Positions 33,663 through 43,371 of a stretch of 64,000 nucleotides of DNA are shown piece after piece. Numbering within the stretch: the stretch's first letter is position 1; every line of letters begins with the position of its first letter. Below the pieces are notes generated by a model that was not told the origin of the DNA, ran no database searches, and was given only the letters and a program-made list of their open reading frames with translations. Origin of the DNA: Meiothermus sp. (GTDB lineage: Bacteria > Deinococcota > Deinococci > Deinococcales > Thermaceae); NCBI RefSeq assembly GCF_026004115.1, contig NZ_BPIM01000001.1:2150501-2214500 (forward strand), written 5' to 3'. The translations under genes were made by a program, and so were the position numbers.

Positions 33663-33956
33663 TCAAGCTTTGGAAGTGTCCACGGCCTCGGGGATGACCC
33701 CGAAGGTTTCCTCGTAGCGCTGGATGTTCTCGGCCAAGCTACGCAGCAGCGCTTTGGCGTGCTGGGGACTGGTGATCACTCTGCTGGTGACCACAGCCAC
33801 GACCTGATTGGGTTGTCCGCCGGGTTGCATCAAGGCGAAGTCGAGGTAGAACTCGTTTTTTTGGTGCGAGAAGATGGCGAAATTGGCATACTTGCCAAGG
33901 GCGGTTTCGCGGTCAATATCTACACGTAGCTCGGGTACTTGTGAAACCTCACTCAC
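33663..33956 (-). CDS. DUF3467 protein
   Basis: A 97-residue soluble protein. It has the family signature of an N-terminal beta strand pattern (YANFAIFSHQKNEFYLDFAL), a TSRVITSPQHAKAL motif and a helical end. Function is unknown. Its start overlaps the stop of the adjacent Roadblock gene by 4 bp, so the proteins are probably made together, perhaps as a complex with a small GTPase encoded elsewhere. Confidence 0.8.
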   Translation of the reverse strand: MSEVSQVPELRVDIDRETALGKYANFAIFSHQKNEFYLDFALMQPGGQPNQVVAVVTSRVITSPQHAKALLRSLAENIQRYEETFGVIPEAVDTSKA

Positions 33957-34306
33957 GATAAAGCCTCCTGGAGGCGTGGGACACTCTTTTTCAGCTGGAA
34001 GCGCACCCGGCCCAGGCTTTGCATGGAATCCATCAGCACAACCAGCAAGTACCCAGCCTCGAGCGGAACCAGCAGCACTGGCCCCTCGGGGTACTCTACC
34101 ATGACCTCTTCGACCTCGCCGCGACCAAGTTCTTGGGATAGAGCCCGCGCAGAGGCCAGCGCCGTAGAAGCTGCACCCCCTAGAAAATCCACATCCGGGG
34201 CTTGCTCGGCACGGAGACTCTCGACCACAAAGCCATCCTCGGCTACCAGCGCCGAGGCCAACACGCCTTTGGTGACTTGCAACTCACCAAGCACTTCTTG
34301 AATCAT
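33953..34306 (-). CDS. Roadblock/LC7-domain protein (MglB-like), second of pair
   Basis: A 117-residue single Roadblock domain: VTKGVLASALVAEDGFVVES near the start and a central beta sheet (GPVLLVPLEAGYLLVVLMD). Roadblock proteins bind and activate Ras-like GTPases such as MglA. The site TAGGAG precedes the ATG. It overlaps the DUF3467 gene and lies 10 bp after the first Roadblock gene. Confidence 0.83.
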   Translation of the reverse strand: MIQEVLGELQVTKGVLASALVAEDGFVVESLRAEQAPDVDFLGGAASTALASARALSQELGRGEVEEVMVEYPEGPVLLVPLEAGYLLVVLMDSMQSLGRVRFQLKKSVPRLQEALS

Positions 34307-34316
34307 AGATTGACTC

Positions 34317-34649
34317 CTAGATTGTTTGCGCCAGGCGCAGGGCTAGACGTGAAAGCTCGTTGCCGATGCTCTTGCGATCCGCGCCCTTCTCAACCACTGC
34401 TCCCAGAAAATAGCCACCAAATACCACCACCAGCACCTCCCGGTGTTCAGTAGCGATGGTGAAGCGCCGTAAGTCTCCTCCCAGGCTCTTGGCCAGAGTG
34501 CGGCTGGCTCTGGCGAGGGTGGCCAGCTCGGCAGCCAACAGCTCGGGCTCTGGAGTTTCCTTGCCTGCGCTTTCGATCACCAGCCCGTCCTGACTGGTTA
34601 GGATGGCCTGGCGGACTCCCAGTGGTACGAGGGTCTCGAGCATTTTCAT
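34317..34649 (-). CDS. Roadblock/LC7-domain protein (MglB-like), first of pair
   Basis: About 110 residues with the same fold: LGVRQAILTSQDGLVIES at the N-terminus and a GGYFLGAVVEKGADRKSI strand-loop near the end. The frame opens at TTG 34673; the ATG at 34649 (or 34643) is a better start for the domain. It leads the three-gene Roadblock-Roadblock-DUF3467 unit. Sequence identity to its partner is low, so they may form a heterodimer. Confidence 0.8.
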   Translation of the reverse strand: MKMLETLVPLGVRQAILTSQDGLVIESAGKETPEPELLAAELATLARASRTLAKSLGGDLRRFTIATEHREVLVVVFGGYFLGAVVEKGADRKSIGNELSRLALRLAQTI

Positions 34650-34898
34650 GCGCTGCCCCCACAATCGTCCCAACCCATACGGATTTTAGCCTAGCATAGC
34701 CCCCGCCAGGGTTCTGCCCATTTGCACAGAAAAGCGTTATGTGGCGAGGGCACTTGAATGAGAAACCTTCCGAGCACCAGCAGCTTCTTTCCTGACCGCA
34801 AGCAGGCAGTCCAAAGCGATGTCCACCCAGTTTTGTCCTCCGACTTGGCCACGGCTTTATCTCTGGGATGCGCACATGGGAGATTACCGCTGGACGGG

Positions 34899-35916: not shown

Positions 35917-37131
35917 TCACCCCGGTCTGGCTTCACTGGGCTGGCGCGGGATGCCACCCCATAAAAACACCGTAAAGACCGCCAAAAATACCGCGAAACC
36001 AGACATGTACAGCACCGTCAGTACCCCCAGCCGTGGCTCCAGAACCCCGGCCAGAAAGGTGCCGATCAAGACCGCACTTTGCATGGTGGCTCCAAAAGCC
36101 GCCATGATGCGACCCCGCAGCTCGGGCGGTGCGGCCAGTTGAATAATGGAGCGGGCCGGTACGATAAACATGGTGTTCAGGATGCCCAGCGCAACCATGG
36201 CAACCCCGGCCCAGACTGGAAAAGGAAACAAGCCGGTGGAGGCTAAAAAGAGTCCCCATGTTCCCAGCCCCAGCAGGAACACCGTCTCGCGGGATAGGCG
36301 TTTAATTAGAGGTATGGTCACAAACAAGCCCATAATGGCCCCTCCGGCCATCAGGCCCTCGAGCACCCCAAACCCCTGTACCCCAATTTTGAGGGCGCCC
36401 ACCGCATATACAATCCCCAGGGCTGCCTCTACCGAGCCAAAAGCAGCGGCCAGGGCCAATATTCCAATGGTTCGGCTGAGGGTGGGGTTTTGCCACAGCG
36501 GGCGCAGGCCTTCGGCCACGGCGGCAAAGTAGTTGCTCTTGCCCGCCTTGCCAGGAAGCGGGGGTAGAAGGGCCAGCAACACAGCGGCAATCAGGTAAGA
36601 CGTAGCATCTATCCAGAAGGCCGGGGCTGGCCCCACATTTGCGACCAGCACCCCTGCCAGGGCCACAAAGGCCACATCGGCGAAGCGGCTGACAAAAGTC
36701 ATCAGGCCGTTGGCCCCATCGAGTGCTGATTCGGGCACCATGTCGGGAATGGCGCTGTTGCTGGCTGAGTAATGCAGCGACTCAAAAACGGCCATCAGAA
36801 AGGCAATAACCATCAAGAAGGGCATCGAGCCAATAGCAAAAAGCGGTATGCAGGCGACCAGAAGAGCTCGAACCAGGTCGGATAGAACCATTAGGGTACG
36901 GCGGTCGTAGCGGTCGGACAGGGGCCCCAACAGCGGCCCCAGCACTGCGCTGGCCAAAAACTGTGCGCCCAGAATCAGGGAGACCCAGACAGCATTCTGG
37001 GTTTCCTGATAGGCCACAAACAGCAAAGCGATGCGATGAATCTTGCTGCCAACCAGCGATATCAGGCTGGATATAAACAGCCAGCGAAATCCTATATGTT
37101 GTAATGCGCTCCACATAAGTTGCTCAATCAT
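35917..37131 (-). CDS. MFS transporter
   Basis: A 404-residue protein with 12 predicted membrane segments. The A-like loop between segments 2 and 3 (GPLSDRYDRRTLMVLSDL) is typical of the major facilitator superfamily, of the MFS_3/enterobactin-exporter-like group. It probably exports small molecules; the substrate is unknown. A putative -10 (TAAAAG) ends 11 nt upstream of the ATG. It is followed by ebfC-recR on the same strand. Confidence 0.88.
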   Translation of the reverse strand: MIEQLMWSALQHIGFRWLFISSLISLVGSKIHRIALLFVAYQETQNAVWVSLILGAQFLASAVLGPLLGPLSDRYDRRTLMVLSDLVRALLVACIPLFAIGSMPFLMVIAFLMAVFESLHYSASNSAIPDMVPESALDGANGLMTFVSRFADVAFVALAGVLVANVGPAPAFWIDATSYLIAAVLLALLPPLPGKAGKSNYFAAVAEGLRPLWQNPTLSRTIGILALAAAFGSVEAALGIVYAVGALKIGVQGFGVLEGLMAGGAIMGLFVTIPLIKRLSRETVFLLGLGTWGLFLASTGLFPFPVWAGVAMVALGILNTMFIVPARSIIQLAAPPELRGRIMAAFGATMQSAVLIGTFLAGVLEPRLGVLTVLYMSGFAVFLAVFTVFLWGGIPRQPSEARPG

Positions 37132-37647: not shown

Positions 37648-39447
37648 TCAAGAAACGGCCTGGCTCTGAGGTTGAATGATGACCAGGCTATGGGCTACCC
37701 GTGCCCCTTCACGTGCCAGCACCAACCCTCCCTCGGGCACCATCCAGATCATCAAATCCTGTAGTTTGCGAGGTACCAGCCCGGTAGAAGAGACATACAC
37801 GGCATCATCCTGGTAGCGCAGCGAAAGCACAGCGCTACCTGCCTTGACTGTGCTGGGGCTGTCACCCACAGTCGTGGAGCCTACATCCTCTCCCAGGGTA
37901 TCGCGGGAGGGGGGGCTAAAGCCCAGCCATTCGGAAAGCTCGAGCCGCAAGACCTGGGCGTAACTTTCTAGCTCGAGCGCCCGCGCCACTTCGGCTAGAT
38001 AGGCTGTCCAGCTCGAGTTCCTTTCAATGCGGCCCTTGACTACCTCGAGGCCCTTGCGGGCAAAGTCCTGGAGATTGTCTATGGGGGCTTCGCCGTATTT
38101 GCCAGCCGATTCGGGGCTGAACAGGGCATAGTTGACCTCGCCCTTGAACCGGGCTGAAAGTGCCCGTAGCAAGCGCAGGTAGGCAAAGTGGTTTTCCGGC
38201 CACATCAGGAAGGTCATCACCCGCCCTTCGGCCAGGAGGTTGGAAAGGGTGGCCGCCTCGCGGGGTTCGATGCGCAAATGCAGGTAGTCCTGATAGCGGA
38301 TTACATGTAGCTCGGCATCCGGAAGGGTCAAGCTGAAAGTTGCGCCTTCTTCGATCATTCGCTCTTGTCCACCCACACTCAGGCCAAAGAGTTTGCCTGC
38401 CTGCGAGATGCCAATTTCGTGGTTCCAGAAGTAAAAGCGTTGCGGCATCAGGCGCAGACTAAGGGCCCTGGCATCGTGGGGAACGGCCTGGAGTCCATAC
38501 TCCGGGCTCTGGCTGCCCAGAATTTTGGGGGGGATATGCGGCCAACTGGCCTCGCCCCTGGGGCTGGGCAGGTAGCGGGAGAGCAGGGTGGTCAGGCGTT
38601 CGATGGCCGCTGAAAAACGCCCCCGGTCGTCCTCCATGACCAAGGACATCCGGCGCTCCTCGGCAGCGGCGGCCTGGAGACGCTCCTCCAGGGCCCGAAT
38701 TTCCCCAATGCTCAGGTTCTGGCGGTGGGCCTCCTCGAGCGCCCGGCGCAGGGTCTCGAGACTGGGCCCCCGAATGCTGGTGCGGAGCGAACCTTCGCTT
38801 TCCAGCACTCGCCGGGCAAAGCGCCTTATGTAAGGCACGGTTTCTTCCGGCGGCAGTTTGAGCTTACTTGAAAGGGCAAAGGCCTCACGGAACAGCTCCA
38901 TCAGCATGTTTTTGGCAACGACGGGGTCCTCCAGATGTACCCTGGGATCGGAGACGCTGGGAATGGGGTGGGCCAGCACAAAGCGCGAGAGGTTGTAGTC
39001 CTGAGCAAACTGGGGGCTTTTGGAATAGGCCTCGAGGTTTTGCAGGATCGCATAGGTCATGCGCAGCTCGTCCCGCTTGCCATGATTGAACGACTTGGCG
39101 GTACGCAGGAGGTCGCGCTCGAGCCGGCTCCAGTACACGGCCTCGGCCAGCTTTTCCAGGGCCTCGCGCTCGGGGCTGGCCGCAGGGCTGTCCTCTTCAA
39201 CCAGGATGGTGCCCAGATCGGGGGTGCTGCCCTCGTCCACGGCGGTCTTGTAACCGGGCCGGTGGGCTTTGAAACGTGCATCTATATCGCGAAACTTCTT
39301 AGCCAGCGGGCCCGGCAGGTTGGACTGGATTAAAGTCTGGCGCAGACGGGTCAGGCCCGCCATCCCCCCTTTGGGTTCGGTGCCCGCTACAAGGTCGTCT
39401 ACCTTGTATTCATATAGCTCGAGTAATTCAACCAGGCCTGCCTTCAT
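37648..39447 (-). CDS. 599-residue protein of unknown function beside a Ser/Thr kinase module
   Basis: A large soluble protein with no signal peptide or membrane span. The N-terminal third is helical and charged, and about residues 250-290 form a probable coiled coil (LRRALEEAHRQNLSIGEIRA). The C-terminal half is mixed and ends in a beta-rich segment. No family was recognised. It is divergent from the PP2C-kinase pair across 22 bp with overlapping -10 boxes, so the genes are likely regulated together; a role as a kinase substrate or partner is a guess. Confidence 0.75.
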   Translation of the reverse strand: MKAGLVELLELYEYKVDDLVAGTEPKGGMAGLTRLRQTLIQSNLPGPLAKKFRDIDARFKAHRPGYKTAVDEGSTPDLGTILVEEDSPAASPEREALEKLAEAVYWSRLERDLLRTAKSFNHGKRDELRMTYAILQNLEAYSKSPQFAQDYNLSRFVLAHPIPSVSDPRVHLEDPVVAKNMLMELFREAFALSSKLKLPPEETVPYIRRFARRVLESEGSLRTSIRGPSLETLRRALEEAHRQNLSIGEIRALEERLQAAAAEERRMSLVMEDDRGRFSAAIERLTTLLSRYLPSPRGEASWPHIPPKILGSQSPEYGLQAVPHDARALSLRLMPQRFYFWNHEIGISQAGKLFGLSVGGQERMIEEGATFSLTLPDAELHVIRYQDYLHLRIEPREAATLSNLLAEGRVMTFLMWPENHFAYLRLLRALSARFKGEVNYALFSPESAGKYGEAPIDNLQDFARKGLEVVKGRIERNSSWTAYLAEVARALELESYAQVLRLELSEWLGFSPPSRDTLGEDVGSTTVGDSPSTVKAGSAVLSLRYQDDAVYVSSTGLVPRKLQDLMIWMVPEGGLVLAREGARVAHSLVIIQPQSQAVS

Positions 39448-39455
39448 TCAGACGG

Positions 39456-39464
39456 TATTATAAG
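39456..39464. promoter_or_regulatory. Overlapping divergent -10 boxes
   Basis: TATTATAAG contains TATTAT reading right (8 nt before the PP2C ATG) and TATAAT reading left (9 nt before the 599-aa ATG). The two promoters cannot be melted at once by separate polymerases, so their use is probably mutually exclusive. Confidence 0.55.
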
Positions 39465-39469
39465 GTGTC

Positions 39470-40228
39470 ATGCGATTGGCACGGCTTGAAATTGCCACAG
39501 AATCCAATATTGGTCGTCGTCGTAGAAACAACGAGGACTTTCACCGCGTTGCCGTACACCCGACCCCCGCCGGCAACCTGGTCTTGCTGGCCGTGGCCGA
39601 TGGTATGGGGGGGGCCGAAGCGGGTGAGCTGGCCAGCAAGCTGGCTATTGAAGGCGTTAGCTCCGCCGCCAAATCCTACGCCGAACACGCCGCTACGGGT
39701 CGCCCTGGGGTGGGGCTCAACCTGGTCATGGACAAGGCCTTCAAACTATCCCAGCGGCGGATCGTACAAGAAGGCGAGCGGGTGCCTTCACGCAAGGGCA
39801 TGGGCACCACCCTCACCGCCGTCATGCTGACCGAATGGAACCGGCAAGCCGTGATTGGGCACGTGGGCGATACCCGCGCCTACCGCTACTCCTCGGGCCG
39901 CTGGACGATGTTGACCCAGGATCACTCCTGGGTGGCCCAGCAGGTGCGCCAGGGGGTACTCACCGCCGACCAGGCCGAAGACCACCCCTGGAAGCACATG
40001 TTGACCCAAGCCCTGGGGCTGTCCGATGTCCGGCACGACATTATCTCGGTGAACTTTGCTCCTGGCGAGGTGCTGGTGCTGGCCACCGATGGACTCTATG
40101 GCCTGGTGCCCCCGGAAGAATGGAACATTACCGGCGATTTGCAGTCGGCTCTCGAGAGCTGGGTCAGCAAGGCTTTGGTGCGTGGTGGAACAGACAACAT
40201 CACGGTGGTTGCTGCGAGGTTCAAATGA
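39470..40228 (+). CDS. PP2C-family protein phosphatase
   Basis: A 252-residue cytosolic Ser/Thr phosphatase. The metal-binding Asp motifs are NNEDF (near the N-terminus), LLAVADGMGG, GHVGDTRAYRY and VLATDGLYGLV, with a final GGTDNITVV. It ends in ATGA overlapping the start of the membrane Ser/Thr kinase gene, forming the usual phosphatase-kinase pair. It should reverse that kinase's phosphorylation. Confidence 0.93.
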   Translation: MRLARLEIATESNIGRRRRNNEDFHRVAVHPTPAGNLVLLAVADGMGGAEAGELASKLAIEGVSSAAKSYAEHAATGRPGVGLNLVMDKAFKLSQRRIVQEGERVPSRKGMGTTLTAVMLTEWNRQAVIGHVGDTRAYRYSSGRWTMLTQDHSWVAQQVRQGVLTADQAEDHPWKHMLTQALGLSDVRHDIISVNFAPGEVLVLATDGLYGLVPPEEWNITGDLQSALESWVSKALVRGGTDNITVVAARFK

Positions 40229-42249
40229 GCTACCTGATTGCTTTGTTGCTGGTCGGCATCTCCGCCGCTCTGATCTTGCGCGTAGGACGTACCTGGATGA
40301 TGCTGGCATTGGTAGCGCTGGTGCTGGGTGGATTGGTGGTGCTGGGGGCTCAGCCCCTGGTGCTGGCTACGGCCCTGTTGTTGGGCCTGGCTTCGATGTG
40401 GGCTCCTAAATCCACCCGGGTGGCCTTCAAACCCCGCCCCAAGCCCGCACCCCGACCCCCCAAGACCAAGCCCAACCCCAAGGTATCGCTCGGGAACAGC
40501 GTCACTGGCCTCGAGGCCCTCTACGATATCCAGGAAAAGGTCGGCATCGGTGGTATGGCCACGGTTTACAAGGGTCGCAGCAAAAAAGATGGCCGTCTGA
40601 TTGCCCTCAAAATTCCCCAGGAAAAATACATTGGCGACCCCCGGTTTGTACGACGCTTCCACCGCGAGGCCGAACTGCTGGCCCACCTCGACCATCCGGG
40701 CATCGTAAAGGTGTATGACCACGGCAACCAGGGCGATACCCACTACATCGCCATGGAATTTCTCGATGGTGAGGGGCTGGATCGCTTGATCGAAAACAAG
40801 CGCCTGGGGATCAGGAGCATCGTGGAAGTGATGAGCCGGGTAGCCGAGGCCCTCCAGCACATTCACGCGCAGGGCATCATTCACCGCGACATCAAGCCCG
40901 GCAACATCATGGTGCTCAAGAATGCCGTGCGTGACGATGGCAGCGTGGATCCTCGGGGGGTGCGCCTGATGGACTTCGGGATTGCCGCCGGTAAGGTGCT
41001 GACCCGCCTGACCATCACCGGGGCCCGCATCGGTACCCCGGTCTACATGAGCCCCGAACAGGCCAAGGGCCAGCGCATCGATCACAAGTCCGACATTTAC
41101 AGCTTTGGGGTGGTGTTCTACGAAGCCCTGTGCGGTCAACCCCCCTTCCAGGGGGCCTACGAGGCGGTCATCCATCAACAGATTACCCAGATGCCCACCC
41201 CGCCCAAGCAGGTTAACCCGGATATTCCGCAGGTGCTCTCCGATCTGGTCTACCGCATGCTGGAAAAAGACCCGGAAAAACGCCCTGGTCTGGAGGCAGT
41301 GCTGGAAGTGTTGCGCGGTAAGTGGCAGGAAGACCCGGGTCTTACTGCCCCCCTCTACCTGGCCCTGGCCGTGGAGACCAAGAAGGGCACCCTGCGCCTG
41401 ATGGACCTGAATGGCACCCTGATGCGGATGTGGAGTGGGGTGGGCAGCGGGCGGGGTATGTTCCCCTCGCCCCCGCTCTCCATTTCGGTGGATAAAGACG
41501 GCGGCTTCTGGATTAGCCTGTTCGAGTATGGCGGTGGTGCGGTACGGTTGGTACACCGCTTCGATGTGGAGGGTGAGATCACCCACTCGATTGCGCCCTA
41601 TGGGATGAAGCTGGGTGAACTGCTTTATCCCATCTCGCTGGCGGCGGTGCCCGATGGCCTGCTGGTGCTGGATGGTGAGGCCTGTACCATTACCCGCTTC
41701 GACCTGGAAGGTAACCCCGTGGCCCGCTTTGGGGGTTCTGGGCAGGGCCGGGGCACCTTCGAATCGCCCCGGGCCATGCTGGCCAGCCGCAACTATATTT
41801 TCGTCCTCGACTACGGCAATCGCCAGGTACAGCGCCTGGATCATAGCGGACAGTACGTTTCGCGCTACGCCTTTCGCAAAAGCCGGGAGTCGCAAGAACT
41901 GCGGCTGCTGGGTGGCCTGGGCCTGACCCCCGACGACCAGCTTTTGATTTACGACGCGGACAGCCAGAAAATTCGCAAACTCTCGCTCGAGGGCGAAGTC
42001 TTGCTCTCGCTGCCGCTGCCAGTGGCCGATGGCGAAGACCCCACCAGCCAGGTGGAGATGGTGGTACTGGACGATACCATCTACGCCATCCGCCGGGGCG
42101 GCACCAGGATTCACCGGGTCAAGCTAAGCGGTCAGTCTCTTCCGAGCCTGGAAGTCTATGCCCCTTTACGGGGTATCGCCTTTTGGCACAATACCCAGAA
42201 AGCCAAGGTCAATGCGCCCATAGACCTCTCGGCCCAGGCCTTTGATTGA
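40225..42249 (+). CDS. Membrane Ser/Thr protein kinase with C-terminal beta-propeller-like domain
   Basis: A 674-residue protein. Two membrane segments lie at the N-terminus (about 3-20 and 25-58), then a Pro/Lys-rich linker. A Hanks-type kinase domain follows (about 100-355: GIGGMATVYKG, IALKIP, HRDIKPGNIM, DFGIA, GTPVYMSPEQ). The C-terminal 300 residues look like NHL-type repeats (GGSGQGRGTFESPRAMLA, FVLDYGNRQVQRLD). Most bacterial kinases place the span after the kinase and the sensor outside; here kinase and propeller are on one side. ATG overlaps the PP2C stop. Confidence 0.9.
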   Translation: MSYLIALLLVGISAALILRVGRTWMMLALVALVLGGLVVLGAQPLVLATALLLGLASMWAPKSTRVAFKPRPKPAPRPPKTKPNPKVSLGNSVTGLEALYDIQEKVGIGGMATVYKGRSKKDGRLIALKIPQEKYIGDPRFVRRFHREAELLAHLDHPGIVKVYDHGNQGDTHYIAMEFLDGEGLDRLIENKRLGIRSIVEVMSRVAEALQHIHAQGIIHRDIKPGNIMVLKNAVRDDGSVDPRGVRLMDFGIAAGKVLTRLTITGARIGTPVYMSPEQAKGQRIDHKSDIYSFGVVFYEALCGQPPFQGAYEAVIHQQITQMPTPPKQVNPDIPQVLSDLVYRMLEKDPEKRPGLEAVLEVLRGKWQEDPGLTAPLYLALAVETKKGTLRLMDLNGTLMRMWSGVGSGRGMFPSPPLSISVDKDGGFWISLFEYGGGAVRLVHRFDVEGEITHSIAPYGMKLGELLYPISLAAVPDGLLVLDGEACTITRFDLEGNPVARFGGSGQGRGTFESPRAMLASRNYIFVLDYGNRQVQRLDHSGQYVSRYAFRKSRESQELRLLGGLGLTPDDQLLIYDADSQKIRKLSLEGEVLLSLPLPVADGEDPTSQVEMVVLDDTIYAIRRGGTRIHRVKLSGQSLPSLEVYAPLRGIAFWHNTQKAKVNAPIDLSAQAFD

Positions 42250-42318: not shown

Positions 42319-42825
42319 ATGAAGTTGAAGACCGGTGACCCAGCTCCACTGATCCGGGTGCAGGATGCTTTTGGCAAAACCATAGACCTGGCCGAACTGG
42401 TGCAGCAGGGGCGCTACATTGTACTATGGTTTTACCCTAAAGCCAGTTCCCCGGGCTGTACGGCCCAGGGGAAACAGTACGCCGAACTGTACGAAACCTT
42501 CAGGCAGCTTGGTGCAGAGGTGTTTGGTGTAAGTGCCGACCCGGCTTCGGCCCAGTGCAGCTTTATTGACCAACTGGCGCTCAAAGGCGGCATGATTCCC
42601 GACCGGTCTGGCTCTTTGGGGCGTGCGTTTGGGGTGGGGGGGTGGCTCGGTTTTGGTCTGCTGCTGGGCATGTACAACCGCGACACCATCCTGATCAACC
42701 CCCAGGGCCGGATCGAAAAAATCTGGCGCAACGTCAACCCCTTCCAAGACGCCAAGGTGGTGCTGCAATACCTGAAGTCGAAAGCGGGCGCTGCTCTTGC
42801 CCAGCCCGGACTTAACCAAACTTGA
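42319..42825 (+). CDS. Peroxiredoxin, Bcp/PrxQ family, cytosolic
   Basis: A 168-residue thiol peroxidase. The peroxidatic Cys is C47 in FYPKASSPGCTAQ. The common PrxQ partner 5 residues later is missing (Gly-Lys), but C80 in SADPASAQC may be the resolving Cys, 33 residues on. No signal peptide is present. A paralogue follows after 48 bp with the same Cys spacing, so this is a tandem duplication. Confidence 0.92.
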   Translation: MKLKTGDPAPLIRVQDAFGKTIDLAELVQQGRYIVLWFYPKASSPGCTAQGKQYAELYETFRQLGAEVFGVSADPASAQCSFIDQLALKGGMIPDRSGSLGRAFGVGGWLGFGLLLGMYNRDTILINPQGRIEKIWRNVNPFQDAKVVLQYLKSKAGAALAQPGLNQT

Positions 42826-42873: not shown

Positions 42874-43371
42874 ATGAAACTTTTGTGGTTTTTGCTTTTG
42901 CTGCTGGCCCCGGTGCTGGCGTTGGCTCCCGGTGACCCGGTGTCCTTGCCCAAAGTGCAGGACTCCTTTGGTAAGCCTGTAGACCTGGCGGCTACGGCCA
43001 GGGAGGGGAAATATCTGTTGTTCTGGTTTTATCCTAAGGCCAGCTCGCCCGGTTGCACCGCCCAGGGCAAGCGCTATGCCGAGCTTTATGGCGAGTTCGA
43101 GAAGCTGGGTGTGGAAATTTTCGGGGTAAGTGCCGACCCTGCCGCCGACCAGTGCGCCTTCATCGAGCAGATGGCACTCAAAGGGGCCATGCTGCCCGAC
43201 CGGGATGGCACCCTGGCCAGGCTCTTCAAGGTGGGTGGGATTTTTGGCTTCTACAACCGCGACACCATTTTGGTTAACCCCAGGGGCCGCATCGAGCGCA
43301 TCTGGCGCAACGTGAATCCCTTCCGCGACCCCGATACGGTGCTGGCGTACGTGCGTGAACTGAAGCGGTGA
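42874..43371 (+). CDS. Peroxiredoxin, Bcp/PrxQ family, exported
   Basis: A 165-residue paralogue of the preceding protein with an added N-terminal signal sequence or anchor (MKLLWFLLLLLAPVLALAPG). The peroxidatic Cys is C61 and the second Cys is C94, spaced 33 residues as in the neighbour. It lacks the 8-residue insert (GWLGFGLL) found in the first copy. It would protect the envelope while the first acts in the cytosol. Confidence 0.9.
   Translation: MKLLWFLLLLLAPVLALAPGDPVSLPKVQDSFGKPVDLAATAREGKYLLFWFYPKASSPGCTAQGKRYAELYGEFEKLGVEIFGVSADPAADQCAFIEQMALKGAMLPDRDGTLARLFKVGGIFGFYNRDTILVNPRGRIERIWRNVNPFRDPDTVLAYVRELKR

Follow-up and report, generated by a model that had tools for sequence, protein, structure and literature searches.

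In a 64,000-nucleotide stretch of Meiothermus sp. DNA (the window), three adjoining genes are arranged around a short divergent intergenic region. On the minus strand, a gene with an ATG start (37648..39447) encodes a 599-aa protein, here called D599, which belongs to an unnamed Deinococcota family and whose closest named record comes from M. hypogaeus (98% identity). On the plus strand lie the genes for a PP2C-type Ser/Thr phosphatase of the Stp1/IreP-like kind (39470..40228, 252 aa) and for a PknB-type Ser/Thr kinase (40225..42249, 674 aa), with the phosphatase stop and the kinase start overlapping in ATGA; an 804-aa open reading frame from 39835 in the mechanical listing is a mere upstream extension of the kinase frame. 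The 22 bp between D599 and PP2C (39448..39469, TCAGACGGTATTATAAGGTGTC) hold a putative symmetric bidirectional −10 element. These coordinates confirm the gene overlap and the 22-bp divergent spacing described in the initial annotation. Its three-gene module is correct in gene order but omits a fourth gene, for an MFS transporter (TIGR00900/EntS-like; 35917..37131, minus strand), which sits immediately downstream of D599 in the conserved block of Thermaceae and of family f4, and which in the window begins about 500 bp from D599. Farther out, the kinase gene is followed on its own strand by two similar adjoining genes that read as AhpC/TSA-type peroxiredoxins (42319-42825 and 42874-43371, plus), and two small adjoining frames (33953-34306 and 34317-34673, minus) that read like roadblock/LC7 (MglB-like) proteins lie upstream of recR and ybaB, again on the same strand.

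The designation of the two overlapping genes as a kinase-phosphatase module holds on profile matches for both products. PP2C exceeds the cut-offs of PF13672 (6.3e-15) and PF00481 (3.2e-07) and carries the catalytic motifs RRRNNED, ADGMGG, GDTRAY, TDGLY, and DNITVV, which include the metal-binding Asp motifs NED, DGMGG, TDG, and DN. Since its score against NF033484 (Stp1/IreP) is 185.9 bits, under the equivalog cut-off of 230 bits, we call it Stp1-like and do not file it as Stp1. The kinase domain (residues 100-361) matches NF033483 (Stk1) at 1.8e-85, with 288 bits under the NCBIfam equivalog cut-off of 450 bits, and has PknB and StkP as its best PDB matches. A hydrophobic N-terminus (about residues 3-60), which we read as a membrane anchor, is joined to the kinase domain by a Pro-rich linker, and the C-terminus (about 370-660) matches NHL propellers (TRIM2, 1e-22; scyF_NHL, 4.7e-10) and appears from the sequence to share its side of the membrane with the kinase domain. 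The pair thus resembles the PrkC-PrpC and PknB-Stp1 operons, in which PP2C likewise lies upstream of, and translationally overlaps, a PknB-type membrane-anchored kinase (the anchor being predicted here). It differs in that those kinases carry extracellular PASTA repeats, none of which were found in this kinase by Pfam search, whereas this one has an NHL-type propeller, apparently on the kinase side; and we know of no counterpart of the divergent D599 partner in those operons. Within the same phylum, RqkA (DR_2518) of Deinococcus radiodurans also combines a kinase with a beta-propeller, described as a PQQ-motif or WD40 domain (PMC11007091), and the window kinase may be related to it, a comparison of architecture alone with a genome set that held no Deinococcus. 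The anti-phage kinase PD-T4-6 was rejected as an identity: the PADLOC matches span only the generic kinase domain, and the locus is syntenic across Thermaceae, unlike a defence island.

Architecture of D599

D599 is predicted to consist of an N-terminal helical hook (residues 1-62), a disordered linker (66-88), a helical section (92-292), an eight-strand sandwich (328-395), further helices (397-508), and a second eight-strand sandwich (523-590). The best-conserved stretch of the family is the hook motif LxELYEYKVxDL, and the linker varies in length, is poorly conserved in sequence, and places Ser/Thr beside acidic residues. At one locus (L226, genome G080) the linker has expanded to about 670 residues, with an abundance of Ser, Asp, Glu, and Gln, and in a complete genome (G039, locus L061, 5238-7488) a D599 relative is spread over two frames, the N-terminal 205 residues and the rest, through either a frameshift or a true two-piece gene.

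That this protein lacks a recognised domain, as first annotated, is borne out at the levels of both sequence and predicted structure. Searches found no Pfam, NCBIfam, or PADLOC match and no PDB sequence relative, whether with the single sequence or with a profile. An AlphaFold2 model built from 27 sequences (pLDDT 86, pTM 0.59), whose helical section includes one 46-residue helix, gave only insignificant Foldseek matches (best E 0.055), many of them to helical-plus-PH proteins, and VIA-align returned generic helical matches within background (best Z 6.2). The PH fold was not borne out by the first sandwich modelled alone (pLDDT 87, pTM 0.71), for which Foldseek returned nothing below 0.001; its best VIA-align row, the CcmF periplasmic domain (Z 5.7, 70 residues, 2.5 A), was below the background level of the tool. 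The two sandwiches have strands of nearly equal length and align in register by hhalign over 62 columns (P 4e-4, probability 34%), which is suggestive only of an internal duplication.

FHA proteins are the usual partners of such Ser/Thr kinases, and the sandwich does show a weak shape match to FHA domains (EssC 5fwh, Z 4.0 over 60 residues at 3.0 A; GarA in 6i2r and DgcB 6hc1, both Z 3.3), with unrelated sandwiches scoring at equal Z. FHA membership is nevertheless rejected on sequence: PF00498 matches none of the 27 family members, profile comparison with the FHA domains of relatives gives a probability under 1%, and D599 lacks the GR...SxxH...NG signature. No FHA protein was detected in 13 of the 25 relatives searched, though their genomes encode several Ser/Thr kinases. 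On the present models, no fold name is justified for D599.

The shared intergenic element

The two −10 boxes overlap within the 22-bp gap, TATTAT on the plus strand (39456-39461) and TATAAT on the minus strand (39462-39457), such that the −11A of each strand pairs with the −7T of the other. Assuming the usual 7-bp spacing, the predicted transcription start sites fall at 39468 and 39450, 18 bp apart; should both transcripts begin exactly at the ATG, the predicted distance would be 23 bp. Both values are common among bacterial bidirectional promoters, 18 bp being the commonest layout (PMC10268837) and 23 bp likewise frequent (PMC12825309). With its overlapping −10 boxes, reciprocal −11A/−7T pairs, and predicted 18-bp spacing, the element has the geometry of the known symmetric bidirectional promoters (Warman et al.; PMC10268837, PMC12825309). 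It differs from them in that both transcripts would be mRNAs of adjoining conserved genes and in that the element itself is conserved across genus groups. Since the −10 boxes stand a few base pairs before both start codons, as in the leaderless −10 motifs of Deinococcota, where leaderless transcripts are frequent (PMC12340547), the D599 and PP2C transcripts look leaderless or nearly so. Competition between the two directions is possible; in E. coli, bidirectional promoters of this kind show none at basal activity, and it arises only under strong activation of one direction (PMC12825309).

The overlap of the boxes, which the initial annotation had pointed out, gains weight from comparison among relatives. 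The sequence TATTATAA is found at a constant 8 bp from the start of D599 (position 9) in 17/17 Meiothermus, 2/2 g2, and 5/5 f4 genomes, 24/24 in all, while the flanking bases vary. In g4 TATTATAA is absent and the gap between D599 and PP2C measures 143 bp; Thermus has another sequence, CCTATAATGG or CCTATACAATG, within an equally short gap, and g3 too has a different sequence in a similarly short gap. Because the distance of TATTATAA is fixed in 24/24 genomes despite varying flanks, and because the three-gene order is kept in 49/49, we consider the overlap to exceed chance.

Distribution and joint loss of D599 and PP2C

A D599 profile matched 97 of 111 Deinococcota genomes, a set that contained no Deinococcus, or 96 once a spurious match was left out (G058, E 8e-4, 70 residues). 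D599 adjoins the PP2C-kinase pair divergently in 49/49 D599-bearing genomes of the window's own family (f1, Thermaceae), so that the three-gene arrangement is indeed conserved there, and in 7/7 of f4 and 2/3 of f2, as opposed to 0/33 of f3 (Trueperaceae, by record names) and 0/4 of f5. The initial annotation would have been undermined had most relatives shown the 599-aa gene separated from the pair; across the phylum it is adjacent in 58 genomes and apart in 38, though always apart in Trueperaceae and f5. In most f3 and f5 genomes PP2C and the kinase remain neighbours, and in the two single-contig Trueperaceae genomes D599 lies 420 and 630 kb from PP2C. Every genome of the Thermus group (g5) that was searched has a single D599 copy, and plasmids yielded no match. 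So far, the family has been found only in the Deinococcus-Thermus phylum, the scan of contigs beyond it having used the EYKV pattern, which misses even Thermus (EYRV).

In Meiothermus, Thermus, Calidithermus, and most of f4, D599 has the MFS gene behind it on the same strand, often tens of base pairs away; no MFS homologue was found at the D599 loci of f2, f3, and f5. The arrangement was noted at loci L076, L079, L099, and L110 among others in Thermaceae and f4; in the f4 genus g19, MFS abuts the kinase now that D599 and PP2C are gone. At one Thermus-group locus (L235, genome G074), only PP2C is intact of the four genes: D599 and MFS survive as fragments and the kinase is split between frames, through decay or sequencing errors.

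What is new here is a pattern of joint loss. D599 is absent from 15 genomes, and in 13 of these the PP2C of the pair is missing too. The two exceptions, which keep PP2C without D599, are G049 (58% complete) and G082, whose gap is likely one of assembly, since in its near-identical sister G088 D599 is present as a copy split across contigs. An RpoB tree of 60 genomes, from whose count G012 (one of the 13, 84% complete, without the whole locus) was excluded, places five changes in D599, or four when G082 is set aside. These four losses (f4/g19; f3/g11; f3/g29 together with g31; and G107) are all accompanied by loss of the pair's PP2C, whereas the kinase is kept in three of them (g19, g11, and g29/g31, the g29 match being partial) and was not found in G107. 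In the PP2C tree, the remaining phosphatases of eleven genomes negative for both D599 and the pair's PP2C fall into a second paralogue clade (support 100/99), so the PP2C of the pair has been lost rather than having diverged.

Physical linkage may explain one of these events: in g19 the MFS gene now stands about 50 bp from the kinase, and the joint loss looks like one contiguous deletion. The three Trueperaceae losses cannot each be a single deletion because the genes are unlinked there, which leaves three of the four joint losses independent of linkage and argues for a functional tie between D599 and this PP2C, a tie that we regard as likely in view also of the gene order and the shared promoter. 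A sign test on the tree gave a median p of 0.125; the small number of pairs keeps it from reaching 0.05 at all. There is also a counter-case, a clade (G046, G057, and G108) that has D599 without the pair's PP2C and in which EYKV has been altered to EYVM, EYVL, and EYKF. As for erosion of the hook after PP2C loss, hook profile scores did not consistently drop further than those of the rest of D599.

Candidate roles of D599

Given that losses of D599 take PP2C with them but usually spare the kinase, the evolutionary tie appears to be to the phosphatase rather than to the kinase. The 599-aa protein had initially been put forward as the substrate or regulator of the module; its connection to the module stands, while a role purely as kinase substrate has become less likely. 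We tentatively favour D599 as a dedicated partner of PP2C, either client or targeting subunit, although we would put this reading just short of an even chance. The locus would then be a Ser/Thr phospho-signalling unit made up of a PknB-type kinase, probably anchored in the membrane and bearing an NHL propeller, together with a co-translated PP2C and soluble D599. In this scheme, for which we infer the contact with PP2C, the role of the hook, the direction of the effect, the signal of the kinase, and the firing of the promoter both ways, the N-terminal hook and the long flexible linker of D599 would hold PP2C or be held by it, and the helical and sandwich core would bring PP2C to its targets; alternatively, the core may itself be the main protein that PP2C dephosphorylates. 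One symmetric −10 element would drive D599 in one direction and PP2C-kinase in the opposite one, with the result, as we propose, that the three proteins would be made in a linked ratio. The hook as docking part for PP2C is a guess, to which the motif change in the PP2C-less clade lends no clear support because it is not clearly beyond general divergence. Against a partner role stands the model of D599, in which no binding or catalytic fold is recognised.

A somewhat unlikely alternative is that D599 is chiefly a substrate of the kinase and the output of the module, its acidic Ser/Thr linker switching conformation or partner binding when phosphorylated and being reset by PP2C. The disordered linker, which varies in length up to several hundred residues in G080 and sets Ser/Thr beside acidic residues between two folded parts, would suit such a phospho-switch, and D599 shares promoter and neighbourhood with both enzymes. 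However, the linker sequence is poorly conserved, and a protein that was purely an output of the kinase should come and go with it, whereas the kinase orthologue persists in most lineages without D599 while PP2C vanishes.

We consider it improbable that the neighbourhood is neutral, with D599 a phylum-specific housekeeping protein and the co-losses a product of general genome reduction. The separation of D599 from the pair in all Trueperaceae-type and f5 genomes would fit, as would the small size of some genomes with losses (G107, 1.8 Mb; G110, 2.1 Mb; g19, 1.4-2.1 Mb). Yet both genes are also missing from genomes of unreduced size (3.3-3.8 Mb in G042 and G109, 3.2 Mb in G103) and present in small ones (2.0-2.4 Mb in Thermus, 2.3 Mb in G037), and the promoter element keeps the same bases from one genus group to another. 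Least probable is that D599 serves the MFS transporter behind it, for instance as a cytosolic regulator, with the PP2C-kinase pair controlling transport: the two genes do adjoin in Meiothermus, Thermus, Calidithermus, and most of f4, but the transporter was not found beside D599 in f2, f3, and f5, remains in g19 without D599, and starts at some distance from it in the window.

Taking D599 as the dedicated PP2C partner one step further, it could be the first known of a phylum-spanning class of bacterial subunits that target or regulate PP2C, built as hook, linker, and core with a duplicated sandwich of undescribed fold and dosed against PP2C by the shared symmetric promoter; in this full form we find the idea unlikely. 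Kinase-PP2C operons and bidirectional promoters are of known kinds, while no description of the D599 family turned up in the libraries consulted (Pfam, NCBIfam, PADLOC, and PDB). To our knowledge, bacterial PP2C phosphatases are generally thought to work without dedicated targeting subunits, and a family lost with one particular PP2C even when unlinked would be a direct lead to phosphatase specificity. The promoter, for its part, would offer a small, naturally occurring case in which to test whether a signalling unit is transcribed in both directions and without leaders, as predicted here. Which kinases produce the Thermus thermophilus phosphoproteome is not yet known (PMC12667214), and this conserved locus, present in all Thermus-group genomes searched, is an obvious place to seek them.
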